The notes below the pieces were generated by a model, which worked only from the letters and a program-made list of their open reading frames with translations, ran no database searches and had not been told where the DNA came from. This document shows, one piece after another, positions 21,477 through 27,970 of a stretch of 64,000 nucleotides of DNA (its first letter is position 1; every line of letters begins with the position of its first letter). The DNA lies in the NCBI RefSeq assembly GCF_022811645.1, contig NZ_CP094534.1:1984001-2048000 (forward strand), read 5' to 3'. The DNA comes from Hymenobacter monticola. GTDB lineage: Bacteria > Bacteroidota > Bacteroidia > Cytophagales > Hymenobacteraceae. The translations under genes were made by a program, and so were the position numbers.

Positions 21477-21986
21477 ATGAATAACTGCCTGCACTGTGGC
21501 AATAGCACGGCCAACGCGAAGTACTGCTCCCGCTCGTGCGCCAACCGCGTAAATGGACATCTATTTCCCAGCCGTCGGCCCATCGCCCGCAGTTGTAAGC
21601 ATTGTGGCGCGGCACTGTAAACCCGCCGCACCACCTGCGACAGTTGTAATCCCAGCTTCGTTGATTGGCAACAGGTGCCTCTACAGCAACTCAAGGCAAA
21701 GGCATTGCAGCAGTACGCGGCTCAAATTCGCAGCTTAGCGCGGGTAGCCTACCGCAAATCAAGCCGCCCCAAAGCATGTGCGGTGTGTGGCTACGACACT
21801 CACTACGAGGTTTGCCACATTAAGCCCATAAACGAGTTTATGCCTACTGACTTTGTCGCCGATGTGAACAGACTGAACAACCTCGTGGCGCTGTGCCCCA
21901 ACCATCACTGGGAGTTTGACCACGGCCTGTTATCTGTCACTGTTCTGACCTCTGCAGAGGTTGGAAGCATGGGGCATGAGCAATGA
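21477..21986 (+). pseudogene. HNH endonuclease gene with in-frame stop
   Basis: A single frame from ATG 21477 to TGA 21984-21986 is interrupted by TAA at 21618-21620. Before the stop: a zinc-ribbon half (CLHCGN...YCSRSCANR, then SCKHCGAAL). After it: the matching knuckle CDSCNPSF, and the HNH core ACAVCGYDTHYEVCHIKP, NRLNNLVALCPNHHWEFDHG. All nuclease residues follow the stop. A GTG at 21675 could still start a 103-residue HNH-only product. It lies between GH92 and the tRNA-Arg integration site, so it may be left from an earlier mobile element. The frame identity on both sides argues for one recent nonsense change. Confidence 0.8.
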
Positions 21987-22020
21987 AAAACCCGCTCTGC
22001 GCACTGCAAAGCGGGTTTTC
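21986..22020. terminator. hairpin between HNH gene and tRNA-Arg
   Basis: A 10-bp stem AAAACCCGCT with its complement, loop of 13 nt, A/T runs on both sides. It can end both the HNH transcript and, from the other side, the tRNA-Arg transcript. Confidence 0.8.
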
Positions 22021-22028
22021 AACCAATG

Positions 22029-22100
22029 TAGCCGCGACGAGAATCGAACTCATATCAAGCGTTTAGGAAACGCCTATTCTATCCGTTGAACTACGCAGCC
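22029..22100 (-). tRNA. tRNA-Arg (anticodon CCU)
   Basis: The minus strand from 22100 to 22029 folds as a 72-nt tRNA: acceptor GGCTGCG pairs with CGCGGCT (two G-U pairs), D-loop GTTCAACGG, anticodon loop TTCCTAA with anticodon CCT, and T-arm with GTTCGATTC. CCA is not encoded. The 5' half up to the anticodon stem (22069-22100) is also the left end of the integrated element. Confidence 0.93.
22069..22100. other. attachment site, left copy (32 bp)
   Basis: Identical over 32 bp to 26566-26597. It covers the 5' end, D-arm and part of the anticodon stem of tRNA-Arg. The bases beyond it differ at both ends, fixing the repeat length. Confidence 0.88.
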
Positions 22101-22152
22101 ATTATAAATTACTGTATTTCAACAACTTACAACGTTTTATTCTTAAACTATT

Positions 22153-22192
22153 GTTAACAGAATGAAGGGTAAGCGTTAACATGTTAACTTTG
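22153..22192 (+). promoter_or_regulatory. three GTTAAC sites and integrase -7 box
   Basis: GTTAAC occurs at 22153-22158, 22175-22180 and 22183-22188. The third overlaps a perfect -7 box TAACTTTG (22185-22192), 34 bp before the integrase ATG. A protein bound at these sites, for example the integrase, would block its own promoter; that is inference. Confidence 0.55.
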
Positions 22193-22225
22193 GTGGGCAC
22201 CCCAACAAGCTCAAAATCGTTAAAC

Positions 22226-23659
22226 ATGGCAACTTTACTATCTTCCGATGTCGTTCTTTGGAAACGCAGCAAATCTGACAGCAAAGGTACGGTAAGCCTA
22301 CGTGTCACGAAAGGCAAGGCACGTAGCTACAAATCCCTATCCATCACGATACCGGAAGCGGATTGGAACGAGCGGACGCAACGAGTACGTGCAAGCAACG
22401 CCGATGCCGACGAGTACAACGCCACTATCACGCGCAAGTTGGCTGAACTCGCAGCGGTGGGCAACGAAACCAAAGATGTAGCCAATGCGACGGGGGACTT
22501 TCTGAGCTACTGCGAAAGCTTCATTTCGTCGCTCAGCAGCCTTGGCACTCGCAACAAGTACACGACTATCCTGAACAAGCTGCGCGGGTTTCTACGGTCA
22601 CGAAACGAACAAAGCTTGCCCTTTGCCGATGTCAACCCCGAATTGATACGCCAATTGCAGCAGTACCTATTGAAGCAAGTGACACGAAACGTAGCCAACA
22701 ACTACATGAAGGTGTTCAACCGTTTCCTTAAGTCAGCAGTCAAAGAGCGTAAGTACAACTACGATGTCAACCCGTTTGTGTCCATTGACTACACCAACGC
22801 CCAAAAGAACCGGAAAACGCTGTCAGAGCGTGATATAAAGGCTTTTCGTATGGTAACCCTACCCGACCGCCTACAACGGGCACAGCGGGCGTTTATCGTG
22901 CAATTGTTGGCACAGGGAATGCGCGTATCTGACCTATTGCTACTGCGGTGGTCAGATATCACGACGGACGGTATTAACTACACGATGTTTAAGACCGGCA
23001 AGGAAATGAATGTCCATTTAAATGACATTCTCGTTGCCTTATTGGTCAAACAGGCAGAAACATTGCCGGTATTCAAGCAACATCGGTACTTACAGAAGCT
23101 TACCAAAGAGCTTGCCCACGAATACACCGCCGCTATCAATGCCATTAAGCTGAGCTATGATGCTGACTTCATCGGCAAAAACGCTCTTAACATGCGAGAC
23201 TTTAAGAACGTTCCCGAAGTGGAGAATTATTTGTTAACGCTTGATACACTGCGAATTAATCAGCGTATTGCTATGTTGGACATAGCCAAAACCAAACACG
23301 CCAACGAGTTCGTGTTTTCGTTCCTGCAAACATCTGACTTCCCAACCCACGTCACCTCTATTAATATCGAAGAAAGCCAATATAAGAAAATGCACAGCGC
23401 CAAGATTGTATACAACAGACACTTGAAAGAAATTCAAGCTCTTGCAAAGATTGAGTTTCAGATAACAAGTCATGCCGCCCGACACGCCTACACCAACCTA
23501 CTGCTGACAGACAAGGACGGATACGATGTTTATGACATCAGCCGGGCACTTGGTCACAGCAGCCTCAAAGTGACAGAGAGTTATATCGGCTCTTTCTCAA
23601 AATCTCACGTCGGCAAGATTAATGAAGCCATTGCCAAGCGGTTAACATTGTTGGAATAA
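22226..23659 (+). CDS. tyrosine recombinase / integrase
   Basis: 477 residues from ATG 22226, chosen because the -7 box lies at 22185-22192; ATG 22181 falls inside the promoter. The N-terminus is the arm-binding domain of Bacteroidota phage/transposon integrases (SLRVTKGKARSYKSLSITIP). A SAM-like core-binding domain (YCESFISSLSS...YMKVFNRFL) follows. The catalytic domain has Arg in QGMRVSDLLLLRW, HAARHAYTN (HxxRH), LGHSSLKVT and the nucleophile Tyr in ESYIGSF. An insertion of about 90 residues (roughly between KTGKEM and the HAARH box) makes it longer than usual. Its gene lies next to the left att site and is closed by a good terminator. Confidence 0.95.
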   Translation: MATLLSSDVVLWKRSKSDSKGTVSLRVTKGKARSYKSLSITIPEADWNERTQRVRASNADADEYNATITRKLAELAAVGNETKDVANATGDFLSYCESFISSLSSLGTRNKYTTILNKLRGFLRSRNEQSLPFADVNPELIRQLQQYLLKQVTRNVANNYMKVFNRFLKSAVKERKYNYDVNPFVSIDYTNAQKNRKTLSERDIKAFRMVTLPDRLQRAQRAFIVQLLAQGMRVSDLLLLRWSDITTDGINYTMFKTGKEMNVHLNDILVALLVKQAETLPVFKQHRYLQKLTKELAHEYTAAINAIKLSYDADFIGKNALNMRDFKNVPEVENYLLTLDTLRINQRIAMLDIAKTKHANEFVFSFLQTSDFPTHVTSINIEESQYKKMHSAKIVYNRHLKEIQALAKIEFQITSHAARHAYTNLLLTDKDGYDVYDISRALGHSSLKVTESYIGSFSKSHVGKINEAIAKRLTLLE

Positions 23660-23702
23660 CTGACCGTATCGGTAGATAATCTGAATTAACCGAATCAATG
23701 GC

Positions 23703-23737
23703 AACCCTTGACGCTACGGTGTCAGGGGTTTCTTTTT
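23703..23737 (+). terminator. integrase terminator
   Basis: Stem AACCCTTGAC/GTCAGGGGTT (one G-U pair), loop of 8 nt, then TCTTTTT, 43 bp after the integrase stop. Confidence 0.85.
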
Positions 23738-23878
23738 GTCTGAAAAATCATTATTACTGTATATCATAATGTTAACAATTTGGTAATGTAGAAGCCAAAA
23801 ACAAAGGGGAAAAATCTGATAGATACTTATAGGACATGGACGTTAAAAATTCATGCCATATAAAAATAATCTTATGAT

Positions 23879-25144
23879 ATGCCCCCGCAACCCATCAAAA
23901 ACTATGTACCCGTCATTGATACGTTACATTTAAACTTAACCAAAGACCTTGCGCCAAATGCGTTCGTGTTAACGTCTCATAACCCAACTGATTTACTGTC
24001 AGTTAATCGGCACAACGCAGAAGCCTTATACCATTCCGATGGATACTCATTGGAACGGGTTGAGCAACGAAACCAACATTTTCATTTGGTGTACACTGCC
24101 AAGGTCAACGGCAACGCATTCGGTACCCTATACCTTGACCGCAAGTCACCTTTCGGCAATCAGCAGCATCTTATCCCGTTCCATCTGTATAACAGCACGT
24201 TGTACACGGAATGGGTGCCGACGTTGACCAATTTCATGGCAGCTTTTGAGCTTACCATCAGCACGTTTGCGCAGGTACATATTGCCTTGGATACGAATCA
24301 AAACGCTGTTAATCAGTTTTATAAACTTCAAGACAGCCCCGCCTTTGTAATGAATCACGGTCGGCAGTTGTCCGACAAGGTGAAGACCGCAGGAACCCGA
24401 CAAGCCGGTGGGCAACGTGAAGACGGTCTTTATATCGGCTCAGCCAAATCAGCCAAGCAGACAGTCATTTACAACAAGACCAAAGAGATAGCTGACGAAT
24501 CCGACAAGCACTATATCACGGCTCACCACGTCGCAAACGGTCTTGGCGGTGCCGATGTTTACCGGATAGAATTGAAGCTCAGCAACGATGTTTTGAAGGA
24601 CTATAGACGCCTCTTTGTCAATGAAGACGGTGAAGCTCTCAGCAATCACTTGATGAAGCGTCAGACACTTGAAGACATGGCAGTGTCAACGTATCAACCT
24701 GTTACTGCCTTCCTCGGCACAGCATTGGACTACACCAAGTTTACCAACCCGGCTTACCTCTCGTCACTGTTTGCACTCTTTACCAATTTGGATTTCAGGC
24801 ACAAAGACAACCGGCACATCAGCCGTTGCACTCGTTTTGCCTTCATTGATTTTAATAGATACCAAAAAGAAACCATTATGCAAAAGATTGAATATAAAGA
24901 TAGTATGACGAACAACTTCCGTATCCAAAAGCAGAGCCTTGAAACCCAAATAGACCTGTTCAAGCGAACGGCAAACCCTGTGCTATTGGAAGCTGCTGCT
25001 GCTTATGCTGCTGAGTATCGTTTGCAGTCCCACCTTGCACACCTTATCAAGCTGTATAACATCGGCGACGTGGTGACCGCTCACTTGCCCGTTGGATACT
25101 TTGACAACACCACTATACAGCACCGCATGAATTTGGCACTATAA
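23879..25144 (+). CDS. putative replication initiator of the element
   Basis: 421 residues from ATG 23879; AT-rich like the rest of the element. Features that recall the Rep_trans-type initiators of small plasmids and filamentous phages: VIYNKTKEI in the middle, then VYRIELKLSNDVLKDYRRLF, matching the 'K-E ... R-E-L-K' pattern of that group, and an early IDTLHLNL strand. No HUH pair or helicase motif is obvious and the catalytic Tyr cannot be assigned. It lies just after the integrase terminator with its own spacer of 140 bp. The role as an initiator is inference from motif pattern, gene order and element size; a phage-like structural or other function cannot be excluded. Confidence 0.55.
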   Translation: MPPQPIKNYVPVIDTLHLNLTKDLAPNAFVLTSHNPTDLLSVNRHNAEALYHSDGYSLERVEQRNQHFHLVYTAKVNGNAFGTLYLDRKSPFGNQQHLIPFHLYNSTLYTEWVPTLTNFMAAFELTISTFAQVHIALDTNQNAVNQFYKLQDSPAFVMNHGRQLSDKVKTAGTRQAGGQREDGLYIGSAKSAKQTVIYNKTKEIADESDKHYITAHHVANGLGGADVYRIELKLSNDVLKDYRRLFVNEDGEALSNHLMKRQTLEDMAVSTYQPVTAFLGTALDYTKFTNPAYLSSLFALFTNLDFRHKDNRHISRCTRFAFIDFNRYQKETIMQKIEYKDSMTNNFRIQKQSLETQIDLFKRTANPVLLEAAAAYAAEYRLQSHLAHLIKLYNIGDVVTAHLPVGYFDNTTIQHRMNLAL

Positions 25145-25858
25145 CAACCGACGCCAAAAATTCACTGTAAGCCTTTAAATCATCTTGCTTACAACGACTT
25201 ATACGATTCCGGCTGATTCCATTTTTGTACTGCTGCGGGGGCACAGTGCGGGTGGTTTCGGTCGGTTTCTTTTTGTGGGAACGTGCGACAATACCACGTC
25301 ATTAACTCAGAAAACCAACCAATCAACTGCGTTTTTAAGAGGGTTGGTGAACAGTCTTATTATCAATAGATTACAACAATATGATGCAAATACTTCTGAT
25401 AGTCAACTGATTATATAATGTTGAATATTGGTTTAAGTGTTCAACTGCCTCTGTCACTGAACTATAATTGTAAAACTCAATGAATGGCATGGAGTAAGCC
25501 CGCGCCGGTAGGCAGCGGCGGGCGTAACGAGCCGCAACAAGTGATACAAGGGACAGAGAGCGTAACACCGCAAGCACACAATAAACGCGTGACGAATAGC
25601 CTATTACGATTGACTTCCTTGTACTTCGTTAAATATCAAGTAATTGCCTCTTGGAAGGCTGCATGTTTGAAAAAAGCAGGCACCCAACCAAGCAAATACT
25701 GTGAACAATAACAAAGACCGATAAGATTTACTTATCAGTCCTTATATCTACGGTAACGCGGAAACGAAATGAAGTGTAATGGAAGTGGATTGGAAGTCAT
25801 GCGAAACGAAAACGAGCAAGATGGAAGTGAAGACAGGCAAGACCGAAACCATTGGGCA
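25145..25858. other. non-coding middle of the element
   Basis: About 700 bp with only short, weakly coding frames (for example 25185-25418 and 25484-25711) that I do not accept. A hairpin at 25716-25740 (10-bp stem with one mismatch, loop ATTTA) and a GC-rich patch at 25498-25535 stand out against the AT-rich surroundings. This is where an origin of replication or transfer could be, by position after the putative initiator gene. Confidence 0.4.
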
Positions 25859-25890
25859 CAAAAAAACCGTCACTTGATAGTTACGGCTTT
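25859..25890 (-). terminator. terminator of the small element gene
   Basis: On the minus strand AAGCCGT pairs with ACGGTTT (one G-U) around about 12 nt and is followed by a run of T, 20 bp after the stop at 25910. It supports the minus-strand gene as real. Confidence 0.7.
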
Positions 25891-25909
25891 AATGTTGTGG
25901 TATAGCGGA

Positions 25910-26185
25910 CTACTCGTCTGTCTCCACTATTTCAGCAAGTATTTCAAAGGTGTCCGTGTCGGGTTCAAAGACATATGCTGCTATATCCTGCATAAATTCC
26001 TTTGCTTCATCTTCCGAACTGAACAGGAAAGTTTGGTCAAGTTCGGGACGTGAGGTAAAGATTTTGACCGTCGTTTCCATACCGTTTTGCGTGTCATGCT
26101 GTCCAACGGTGGGCTGCATCCCAACTACATGGGCGATGTTAATCAGTATAGGCGGGTCTTGATGAATGAATCTGAGGAAAGGCAT
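25910..26185 (-). CDS. small acidic protein of the element
   Basis: 91 residues from ATG 26185; the frame is open further upstream but the added sequence is unlike a protein. It begins with a short strand-rich part (FLRFIHQDPPILINIAHVVG) and a middle strand VKIFTSRPELDQTFLFSS, then an acidic helical end (DEAKEFMQDIAAYV...EIVETDE). The pattern of an N-terminal 'hydrophobic-Ile-Asn-hydrophobic' strand pair and acidic helix is common in small Bacteroidota hypothetical proteins. No signal peptide. Function unknown; its own terminator and placement make it the element's only cargo candidate. The displaced tRNA promoter at 26604-26611 points toward it. Confidence 0.55.
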   Translation of the reverse strand: MPFLRFIHQDPPILINIAHVVGMQPTVGQHDTQNGMETTVKIFTSRPELDQTFLFSSEDEAKEFMQDIAAYVFEPDTDTFEILAEIVETDE

Positions 26186-26565
26186 TTGTGTGAGTTTGGG
26201 TGAACACGAAAGGTACGAAGCAAGGTCGTGTATTGCCGTTGTAAAACCGCCGCCGTTAACCAAAGACCGCCTTCGCTCCCATGAGGGAGCGCAGAAACCG
26301 CGCCCACGTGCATTATGCAATATTTTACGGTGGCTCTGTCCCGGTTTCTGTCCCGGTTTTACTCAGTTTGTCCCGTTCTCGTGTCGGATACGGTCAGCCA
26401 AGCGAAGCATCTACACCCCTCAGAGTATTGTCAATCTTGAATATTGACGACGTTTGCTAACGTTCGGAACCCAAAATTACACTCGTTAACGCATATGTTA
26501 ACATTGCTTTGTTAACACACTTAAACAACTGACAATCAAAGCATCAAAGAGTGACAGTATACAGT
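26186..26565. other. right-end region with three GTTAAC sites
   Basis: No gene is supported. GTTAAC occurs at 26485-26490, 26497-26502 and 26511-26516, 50-80 bp inside the right repeat, mirroring the left end; another is at 26255-26260. Short hairpins include CGCTCCC/GGGAGCG at about 26273-26290 and GTCAAT/ATTGAC at about 26427-26446. Confidence 0.55.
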
Positions 26566-26597
26566 AACGCCTATTCTATCCGTTGAACTACGCAGCC
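26566..26597. other. attachment site, right copy (32 bp)
   Basis: Exact copy of 22069-22100. By itself it is only the 5' half of a tRNA and cannot make one; it is what was left of the host gene's 5' end after integration. Confidence 0.88.
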
Positions 26598-26603
26598 GTA
26601 GCG

Positions 26604-26611
26604 CAAAGATA
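26604..26611 (-). promoter_or_regulatory. displaced tRNA-Arg promoter (TATCTTTG)
   Basis: Exact TAnnTTTG on the minus strand, 6 bp before the 5' end of the tRNA fragment in the right repeat. Before integration it would have started the tRNA-Arg transcript; now it faces into the element. Confidence 0.6.
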
Positions 26612-26629
26612 AGAACAGACGCCCGAGCC

Positions 26630-27970
26630 CTACATCTTATACAGCAGCGCGATGCCGAATGACAGCGCCGTCAGAATGAGCCCCACCATGAAGATGGTGT
26701 AGCTCGTGCGCAGCAGGCGGTACTTGCGGGTGAGCACCTCGCCGAGGTAGTAGATGTCCGTCACCATATTGGTGTAAAGCATGTCTTTCGTGCGCATCAG
26801 CTCGCGCATGCCGCCCTGGAAATTGTCGAGGTTGAGCTTGGTGAACTGGCCGAAAAACAGCAAGTTAACGCGGCGGTTGGTGGCGATTTCGGGGCTTTTC
26901 TTTAGCCAGGCAAAGCTTGTTACGTCGGGCTGAGCCGAGAGAATAGCCGTGATGACCGAACCCAGGGCCGTTACCAGCAGAATGCTGATGGGAATGCCCA
27001 GCACCGGGTTGCCGCTCATCATGGGGCCCAGGGCGCCGGCCTTGCCCATTTTGGCGCCCAGGTAGGTGATGATGACCGACATGAGCACGGCGTTGAGTTG
27101 TATCATCATGCTGGCCTTTTTGTCGGCCATGTCGCTCAGCTTCATGTGGTTCGAGTACATGGTGCGGAACATGGTTTCAATGCCCCGCTTGGGCTCGGCA
27201 AAGGTGTCGGTTTTTTCCTTGTTCTTTTTCTTCTCTTTCTTCTCGCGCTTTTTGAGCTCGTCGCGCTGGTCTTCGATGTTGTCTTTGAAGGCCTTTTTGT
27301 AACGGTCCTTGCCGGCATCGGAGTGGTACTTGTGGGCCAGCATGAAGTTGAGCTGCAACTCGGCCCACTCAGGGTTGGAGTAGGTTTTGCCCAGTACCAG
27401 CTCCCACTCGGTGCGCAGCAGCTCGGCGCGGGAGCGGAAGTCGTCCTGGGCCAGATTGCTCATATCGGCATCCACCAACAGCTTTTGCAGCTCGGTTTCG
27501 GGCTTTTCGTCGCGGTGCGTGGCCTTTATCATGTCCTGCACCTGCTGCACGCGGCCGGCGGGCACACCTTGCTCAGTCAGCCAGGCGCCGGCGCGCTCCA
27601 TGCTGCGGAACTCGTGGCCGTCGTACACGTCGAGGTAGCCGGCATCGTGAAACCAGGCGGCCAGCAGCAGCAGCTCGGTGTCGTCGGGGCTGAGGTCCGC
27701 GGCCGGGGCCAGGGCGCGGGCTTCCTTCACCACCATTTCGGTGTGGCCAAGGGAGTGGTAGGTGAGTTTGGGCGGCAGCTCACGGCCGAAAAGGTCGGTG
27801 ATAAAGGCTTCGGCTTCTTTCACCAGGGGCGAGGCCTTGGCTTTGGGCGGCTTGGCGTCGGCGGGCGTCGCGGCGGCGGGTGGCGCGGGCGCGCCCAGGG
27901 TGGCGGGGGAGGCGCCGGCGGCGGCCGGAGTGGGGATGGCCTCGACGGCTTCGGGGGCAATGTCTTTCAT
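26630..27970 (-). CDS. HD-domain protein fused to PycTM (Pycsar effector-like)
   Basis: 446 residues. Residues 1-45 are Ala/Pro-rich. Residues 47-205 form an HD phosphohydrolase domain with all metal ligands visible: YHSLGHTEMV, WFHDAGY, the later ATHRDEK and DADMSNL. A Lys/Glu linker (about 225-255) leads to a PycTM-type membrane module: DKKASMMIQLNAVLMS with the first helix, a second helix near GIPISILLVTALGSV, and a third at the extreme C-terminus (YTIFMVGLILTALSFG). Stand-alone PycTM proteins are effectors of cyclic-pyrimidine anti-phage (Pycsar) systems. Here no cyclase gene is near, so a housekeeping nucleotide-responsive membrane role is as likely. It ends about 30 bp before the original tRNA-Arg promoter. 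Confidence 0.85.
   Translation of the reverse strand: MKDIAPEAVEAIPTPAAAGASPATLGAPAPPAAATPADAKPPKAKASPLVKEAEAFITDLFGRELPPKLTYHSLGHTEMVVKEARALAPAADLSPDDTELLLLAAWFHDAGYLDVYDGHEFRSMERAGAWLTEQGVPAGRVQQVQDMIKATHRDEKPETELQKLLVDADMSNLAQDDFRSRAELLRTEWELVLGKTYSNPEWAELQLNFMLAHKYHSDAGKDRYKKAFKDNIEDQRDELKKREKKEKKKNKEKTDTFAEPKRGIETMFRTMYSNHMKLSDMADKKASMMIQLNAVLMSVIITYLGAKMGKAGALGPMMSGNPVLGIPISILLVTALGSVITAILSAQPDVTSFAWLKKSPEIATNRRVNLLFFGQFTKLNLDNFQGGMRELMRTKDMLYTNMVTDIYYLGEVLTRKYRLLRTSYTIFMVGLILTALSFGIALLYKM

Follow-up and report, generated by a model that had tools for sequence, protein, structure and literature searches.

A 4.5-kb integrative element in the 5′ half of the Hymenobacter monticola tRNA-Arg(CCU) gene and an integrase group that shares its target

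In a 64,000-nt stretch of the Hymenobacter monticola genome (contig NZ_CP094534.1, positions 1,984,001 to 2,048,000; hereafter the window), an intact tRNA-Arg(CCU) gene has a second copy of its own 5′ half 4.5 kb upstream, which raises the question of what lies between the two copies, how it came there, and what this means for the tRNA. We find that a probably mobile element of about 4.5 kb, most likely a small integrative plasmid, sits in the 5′ half of the tRNA gene, upstream of the rebuilt copy. Its integrase belongs to a group that shares this target and side in eight genomes of the family, where integration seems to part the tRNA from its native promoter.

The element, its boundaries and the uninserted site

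The perfect 32-bp repeat, identical to the tRNA 5′ half and bounding 4.5 kb, that the initial annotation had described was borne out by repeat search and tRNA prediction. Its copies at 22069–22100 and 26566–26597 are 100% identical, have the same orientation, lie 4497 bp apart (start to start) and equal nt 1–32 of tRNA-Arg(CCU), with the match ending at positions −1 and 33. The region 21500–27500 contains 33 direct-repeat families, and none of the 20 that were listed is comparable; a perfect 32-mer is far beyond what chance would give. The Rfam tRNA model matches 22029–22100 on the minus strand at 57.2 bits. The G+C content per 500 bp was 0.39–0.52 within the element versus mostly 0.53–0.70 in the flanks shown, with a stretch of 0.47–0.50 near 18.3–19.2 kb as an exception in the host DNA. 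The features, in amino acids (aa) for proteins and with open reading frame abbreviated as ORF, are as follows.

22028–22100, minus strand: regenerated tRNA-Arg(CCU), anticodon CCT; nt 1–32 common with the outer copy, nt 33–73 host
22069–22100, minus strand: integrase-proximal attachment repeat (tRNA nt 1–32), from repeat search and alignment with the outer copy
22101–22225, no strand: intergenic region from tRNA to integrase start; GTTAAC at 22153, 22175 and 22183, candidate arm sites; the 60 nt next to the tRNA lack a TAnnTTTG box
22226–23659, plus strand: tyrosine integrase, 477 aa, in a frame open from 22181 (492 aa); relatives of both 477 and 492 aa exist
23879–25144, plus strand: likely replication initiator, 421 aa, Rep_trans-like with a predicted pT181 fold, from profile matches and predicted fold
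25910–26320, minus strand: small gene, 136-aa ORF; probable coding part about 25910–26185
26485–26516, no strand: GTTAAC cluster (26485, 26497, 26511), candidate arm sites of the outer end
26566–26597, minus strand: outer attachment repeat, the displaced tRNA 5′ fragment, from repeat search and alignment
26604–26611, minus strand: putative native −7 promoter box of the tRNA, TATCTTTG, now 4.5 kb from the intact gene

The search for an empty site, proposed in the initial annotation, was made by joining the two flanks computationally and comparing them with 30 loci, one of which (L041) is the window genome itself. The joined flanks aligned unbroken through both sides to five uninserted relatives (L015, 2422 columns at 85% identity; L037, 2035 at 86%; L016, 2068 at 80%; L023, 1901 at 81%; L027, 2137 at 75%). 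Eight of the remaining loci gave the tRNA and its upstream flank in one stretch and six gave the same in two pieces, while 10 of the 30 matched around the tRNA alone, with different neighbouring genes. Relatives without the 4.5 kb therefore exist, which is the opposite of finding the same DNA in all relatives without a repeat. With up to three mismatches, the 32-mer was present in 72 of 120 genomes of the genus and occurred twice in two of them, the window genome and G042. An HNH frame downstream of the tRNA was rejected as a gene of the element, since the flank in which it lies aligns to G008 and is host DNA.

The window element thus has the features by which 5′-fragment islands are recognised: a tyrosine integrase, a complete tRNA at one end with a fragment in the same orientation upstream, and an uninterrupted site in relatives. 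Such islands make up 159 of the 3919 in the Islander catalogue (PMC4383910), whose examples likewise combine a tyrosine integrase, a regenerated tRNA and a displaced 5′ fragment upstream. Islands of the 5′ type are known but rare, and the choice of target is uncommon but known.

An integrase group at one tRNA and the displaced promoter

Is this target a property of one element or of a wider group of integrases? Among 204 genomes of the family (up to seven candidates scored per genome, expectation value (E) ≤1e-30), 11 held a match to the window integrase, and in eight of these (G000, the window genome, and G199, G144, G100, G173, G175, G140 and G185) ARAGORN placed tRNA-Arg(CCU) beside the integrase start, the integrase lying 5′ of the tRNA and pointing away from it. 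Searching the 11 genomes by pattern revealed, upstream, further copies of the tRNA 5′ half. Outer copies on the same contig lay 4,497, 5,115, 17,352, 23,033, 32,463 and 36,566 bp away in six genomes (the last by arithmetic), and those of G173 and G175 were on other contigs and were paired by judgement. The outer copy was a tRNA fragment in seven of the eight, and the base at −1 differed between inner and outer copies in seven of the eight pairs; therefore the sequence common to element and host is the tRNA 5′ half itself. The outer fragment of G173 (L110; G173:C1:11698–11745) continues into its own inverted copy to form a near-perfect palindrome.

From 46 loci, 42 integrase frames were recovered for a quick tree, with L091 truncated at its start. 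On this tree the eight rows required two changes versus a mean of 7.5 for shuffled labels (0/500 as low), and they fell into one group that also includes G171, G143 and two of the integrases from the order, with a Shimodaira–Hasegawa-like approximate likelihood ratio (SH-aLRT) value of 95. A sample of 390 genomes of the order (E ≤1e-40, four candidates scored per genome) gave 24 places in 21 genomes with no further case, and only the known G000, G199 and G173 lay within 1500 bp of tRNA-Arg(CCU); a sample of 395 genomes of the phylum (E ≤1e-55, again four candidates per genome) returned the window alone. More distant relatives of the integrase in the order (L137, L139, L143) were seen on the 3′ side of tRNA-Arg(ACG) or tRNA-Arg(CCG), so that the 5′ habit may have arisen from the targeting of arginine-tRNA 3′ ends. 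For eight genomes it is shown that one family-wide integrase group shares target and side, which extends the initial annotation beyond the single locus.

Promoters of Bacteroidota carry a −7 box with the consensus TAnnTTTG, and this consensus was used to scan the 60 nt upstream of each gene. The box was found in 29 of 31 uninserted tRNA-Arg(CCU) genes, which comprised 28 loci of the genus and the genes elsewhere in the G137, G143 and G171 genomes. It also preceded seven of the eight outer, displaced copies, versus none of the eight regenerated tRNAs (Fisher p 0.0014), with a chance of about 0.02 of meeting it in shuffled inner 60-mers. Because the box stands upstream of uninserted and outer copies and of no regenerated tRNA, integration seems to swap the promoter of the tRNA, parting it from the native one; the missing box before every regenerated copy was likewise new with respect to the initial annotation. 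The same genome holds tRNA-Arg(TCT), which can read AGG by wobble and may make loss of the native promoter tolerable.

Several observations weigh against so simple a picture. No intact tRNA-Arg(CCU) stood beside the integrase in three of the 11 genomes (G171, G143 and G137), the integrase of G137 being broken by stops and lying near a stretch that resembles the tRNA 5′ half with two mismatches, and the two changes on the tree arise as G171 and G143 fall among the eight rows. The outer copy of G100 is a whole tRNA, hence there is no simple 5′ fragment at its far end. Related rows are found among the eight elements, so that the promoter counts are not fully independent, and no box precedes the outer copy of G173 either. 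No substitute promoter was identified; when 170 nt upstream of each regenerated tRNA were scanned, TAnnTTTG boxes were found only at 139–151 nt, in four of the eight, the window not being one of them.

Gene products and the nature of the element

The tyrosine integrase named in the initial annotation carries Arm-DNA-bind_5, SAM5 and Phage_integrase domains, all above the Pfam cut-offs. Profile search and structure prediction of the 421-aa protein matched no housekeeping family and strengthened its tentative assignment as a replication initiator: a PHROG ‘replication initiation protein’ was matched at E 1.5e-8, one relative (P0003) bears a precomputed PF02486 label, and the predicted fold of about residues 8–331 is that of RepDE and RepSTK1, at 11–14% identity, these plasmid Reps being the nearest solved folds. 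On the other side, the Pfam Rep_trans match (E 3.2e-4, 20.8 bits) falls below the 29.6-bit cut-off, and a sequence search of solved structures with the Rep alignment gave one irrelevant match (E 0.39). On the predicted fold and these matches, the protein is likely a replication initiator of the Rep_trans/pT181 kind. Its tyrosines Y198 and Y212 are invariant. It resembles those of pT181-type rolling-circle plasmids in its fold and differs from them by about 90 more C-terminal residues and low identity, as well as by belonging to an element integrated by its own integrase. The third gene, noted initially as small and of no assigned function, is present as placed; its coding part is probably shorter, the last ~90 codons of the 136-aa ORF, because its single database relative is 87 aa long (76% identical). 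Plasmid records held no match for the integrase and one remote 4.1-kb plasmid for the Rep, and a defence library had none for the Rep or the small protein; the marginal match of the integrase to UzuA in that library (E 0.0022) was disregarded.

We consider it highly probable that the element is an integrative plasmid, small and of the rolling-circle type, from a Hymenobacter-like bacterium, with integration into a tRNA 5′ half. Its integrase, one of the family-wide group with the same target and side and varied cargo, would recombine the attachment site of a circle (attP), containing the complete 5′ half of tRNA-Arg(CCU), with the chromosomal gene; both products are seen here, an intact tRNA at the integrase end and, at the far end, the displaced 5′ fragment still joined to the native upstream sequence. 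The rebuilt tRNA would then be transcribed from element DNA, probably from the 125 bp between tRNA and int. After excision, the circle would be nicked and replicated by the Rep, which may have a part in transfer too. Against this reading stands the Rep_trans score below its cut-off, and the circle is a predicted form; the element itself is real and probably mobile.

That possible role in transfer touches on the alternative that survives best, an integrative mobilizable element (IME) in which the Rep_trans-like protein is a relaxase of the MobT type and a resident conjugative element mobilizes the circle. According to a review, MobT relaxases fall within the Rep_trans kind, and therefore the absence of mobility genes stated in the initial annotation is uncertain; no match to phage structural or packaging proteins was seen among the three genes. 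Inspection of the ORF list revealed no other transfer gene besides the Rep_trans-like protein, no origin of transfer (oriT) or coupling protein turned up, with no dedicated tool applied, and the Bacteroidetes IMEs in the review have canonical relaxases. The closeness of the predicted fold to plasmid Reps also speaks against it, a MobT structure not having been separately compared, and we regard a mobilizable element as unlikely. It is very unlikely that the element is a decayed, immobile remnant, as the ~0.75 kb between rep and the small gene, where the ORF list gives no convincing gene, might suggest; int, rep and both repeats are intact, and close relatives of both proteins occur on other contigs (Int 94% identical, Rep 87%).

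Slightly less probable still is a phage satellite packaged by a helper, for example a small single-stranded DNA phage. The Rep is distantly similar to those of Cellulophaga phages phi12:2, phi12a:1, phi18:4 and phi48:1 (23.0–24.6% over 43–50% of the protein), but this similarity is remote, the three genes, of which the small one has no assigned function, gave no capsid, packaging or phage-regulator match in PHROG or Pfam, and two viral_contigs scans with single Int and Rep sequences found no relative. The ‘satellite’ of the initial annotation is not supported by these results, and its ‘little-described type’ was overstated, as 5′-fragment islands are catalogued and Rep_trans genes in streptococcal integrative elements are known from the review. 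A tandem duplication around the tRNA, for which G042 offers a precedent (an imperfect duplication of at least ~100 bp that takes in the whole tRNA, the copies being 3501 bp apart and no integrase being matched), can be dismissed for the window, where the repeat has its limits precisely at nt 1 and 32 of the tRNA, an integrase adjoins it and the alignment to clean empty sites already refutes a duplication.

The double 32-mer of G042 was accordingly rejected as a second element, given the lack of an integrase match and the duplication of the whole tRNA. That locus (L042:6771–10384), in which tRNA-Arg(CCU) and its upstream flank are imperfectly copied, encloses a protein of 796 aa in which a glycosyl hydrolase 16 domain was recognised, and has apparent transposase fragments, judged by eye, one of which was scanned and had no Pfam match.

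Crossover position, cargo and known systems

Where do such integrases cut? The element region of the window contains 11 copies of the motif GTTAAC versus 1.35 expected from base composition, six of them within 90 bp of the two repeats. The G199 element contains seven versus 1.6 expected, none more than 130 bp from the repeats; in the window genome, the two other Int-Rep elements, with integrases far off in the tree, have two and none. These clusters are candidate arm-type integrase-binding sites. On the 3′ side, the match of inner and outer copies breaks off at tRNA nt 33 in G000, 32 in G199, 35 in G173, 39 in G185, 36 in G144 (also 29), 38 in G140 (also 6, 13, 16 and 22) and 40 in G175 (also 4, 5 and 20), positions that are to be read with the caveat that a useless outer copy may have drifted later. 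Within the anticodon loop (nt 32–38), the outer copy differs from the tRNA at 4/7 positions in G000, 3/7 in G199, 4/7 in G173, 2/7 in G144 and 1/7 in G140; the whole loop matches only in G185 and G175, and G100 is uninformative.

The Islander paper names three site classes, in the anticodon loop, the T loop and the T-acceptor junction (PMC4383910), and unlike these the window repeat ends at nt 32, where the loop has only begun. By their sequences, G185, G175 and nearly G140 are the mirror image of the known anticodon-loop site. The loop mismatches speak against a crossover there for all elements, an idea that drift or mismatch tolerance would rescue; the integrase of CTnDOT tolerates mismatches there. 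Because most or much of the loop mismatches in the window, G199 and G173, the cut in these may lie further 5′. Nt 23–28 would be common to the informative pairs on the sole condition that G140 and G144 already had their mismatches, at nt 22 and nt 29 respectively, when integration took place. We offer tentatively, as a doubtful proposition, that the branch of the window exchanges strands 5′ of the anticodon loop (within nt 1–31, perhaps 23–31), outside the three named subsites, and that its elements place tRNA-Arg(CCU) under their own promoter, with integration and excision switching its control.

Elements of the integrase group span 4.5 to about 37 kb and comprise small replicons, a prophage and defence islands. 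In a scan of 28 proteins from the G140, G185, G100 and G144 elements, that of G140 was prophage-like, with terminase above and portal just below the Pfam cut-off; G185 has a GmrSD nuclease and an HNH nuclease, G100 AAA proteins read as McrB-like and AbiEii-like, and G144 a type I restriction system, a D12 methylase and a VapE-like domain. The viral_contigs search with the integrase alignment gave five loci, four of which show no tRNA, while L163 (IMG/VR, 36.9 kb) shares its tRNA sequence with the G140 prophage. Plasmid records matched the G140 integrase in 36 remote cases (23–29% among the 20 listed), and phage records had no match for that of G144. One of the closest systems is the G199 element, with an Int 54% identical, a Rep relative, the same tRNA half and GTTAAC clusters at both ends; unlike the window element, it is 5.1 kb long and has a serine recombinase (Resolvase domain) and a 294-aa gene.

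The window genome holds two further Rep relatives in integrated elements. In one (L004:6051–10390, about 181 kb on C1), a 19-bp repeat covers the start codon of a Cys/Met-metabolism pyridoxal phosphate (PLP) enzyme gene (PF01053), so that a 5′ gene end is again split from its upstream flank, here with a distant integrase and a serine recombinase; the other, the third Int-Rep element of the genome (L005:7501–14186), uses the 3′ end of tRNA-Glu, where an 18-bp repeat lies. In relatives, the repeats of elements with a Rep are located at tRNA 3′ ends (for example L047 at tRNA-Arg(ACG); also L095, L097 and L098). It follows that Rep and integrase modules are shuffled between elements, the 5′ tRNA target going with the integrase. 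A 3922-bp Hymenobacter sp. CRA2 contig with a Rep (L048) had no terminal overlap that would mark a circle. An element at a tRNA-Glu 3′ end in G085 (L153:1658–8962) has 455-aa and 260-aa genes, neither with a Pfam match, the 260-aa protein being 28% identical to a 221-aa protein of the CRA2 contig, and a homologue of the small gene of the window.

How does the group compare with known systems? Among the nearest are pTN3 and TKV4 of Thermococcales, which also use a tRNA 5′ half as the chromosomal attachment site (attB) and cut the rebuilt tRNA from its original promoter (PMC8371274, PMC5495485). There the tRNA is expressed from the integrase promoter, a habit reported as seldom found in bacteria, whose tRNA islands, with few exceptions, keep the rebuilt tRNA under its original promoter (PMC8371274). 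These archaeal elements have attP within the integrase gene, which is split on integration (PMC8371274, PMC5495485), unlike the window int, which is intact and about 125 bp from the repeat, beside attP. In the tRNA-dependent lysogeny of mycobacteriophages, integration at a tRNA gene also affects tRNA supply; there the ~10-bp core leaves the tRNA without repair, and a spare comes with the phage (PMC10865867), unlike the rebuilt tRNA of the window. The Arg-tRNA island described for Riemerella lies downstream of the tRNA (PMC6764341). The open-access literature, searched mostly without the genus name, gave no description of such integrases in this family.

The most interesting point is a bacterial integrase group that repeatedly separates one tRNA from its promoter. 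On plasmid-like, phage and defence elements, it seems to do the opposite of the usual promoter retention in all eight cases at one tRNA, which opens the questions of what price the host pays for the exchanged promoter, what makes a probably dispensable tRNA the target and at which position these integrases cut.

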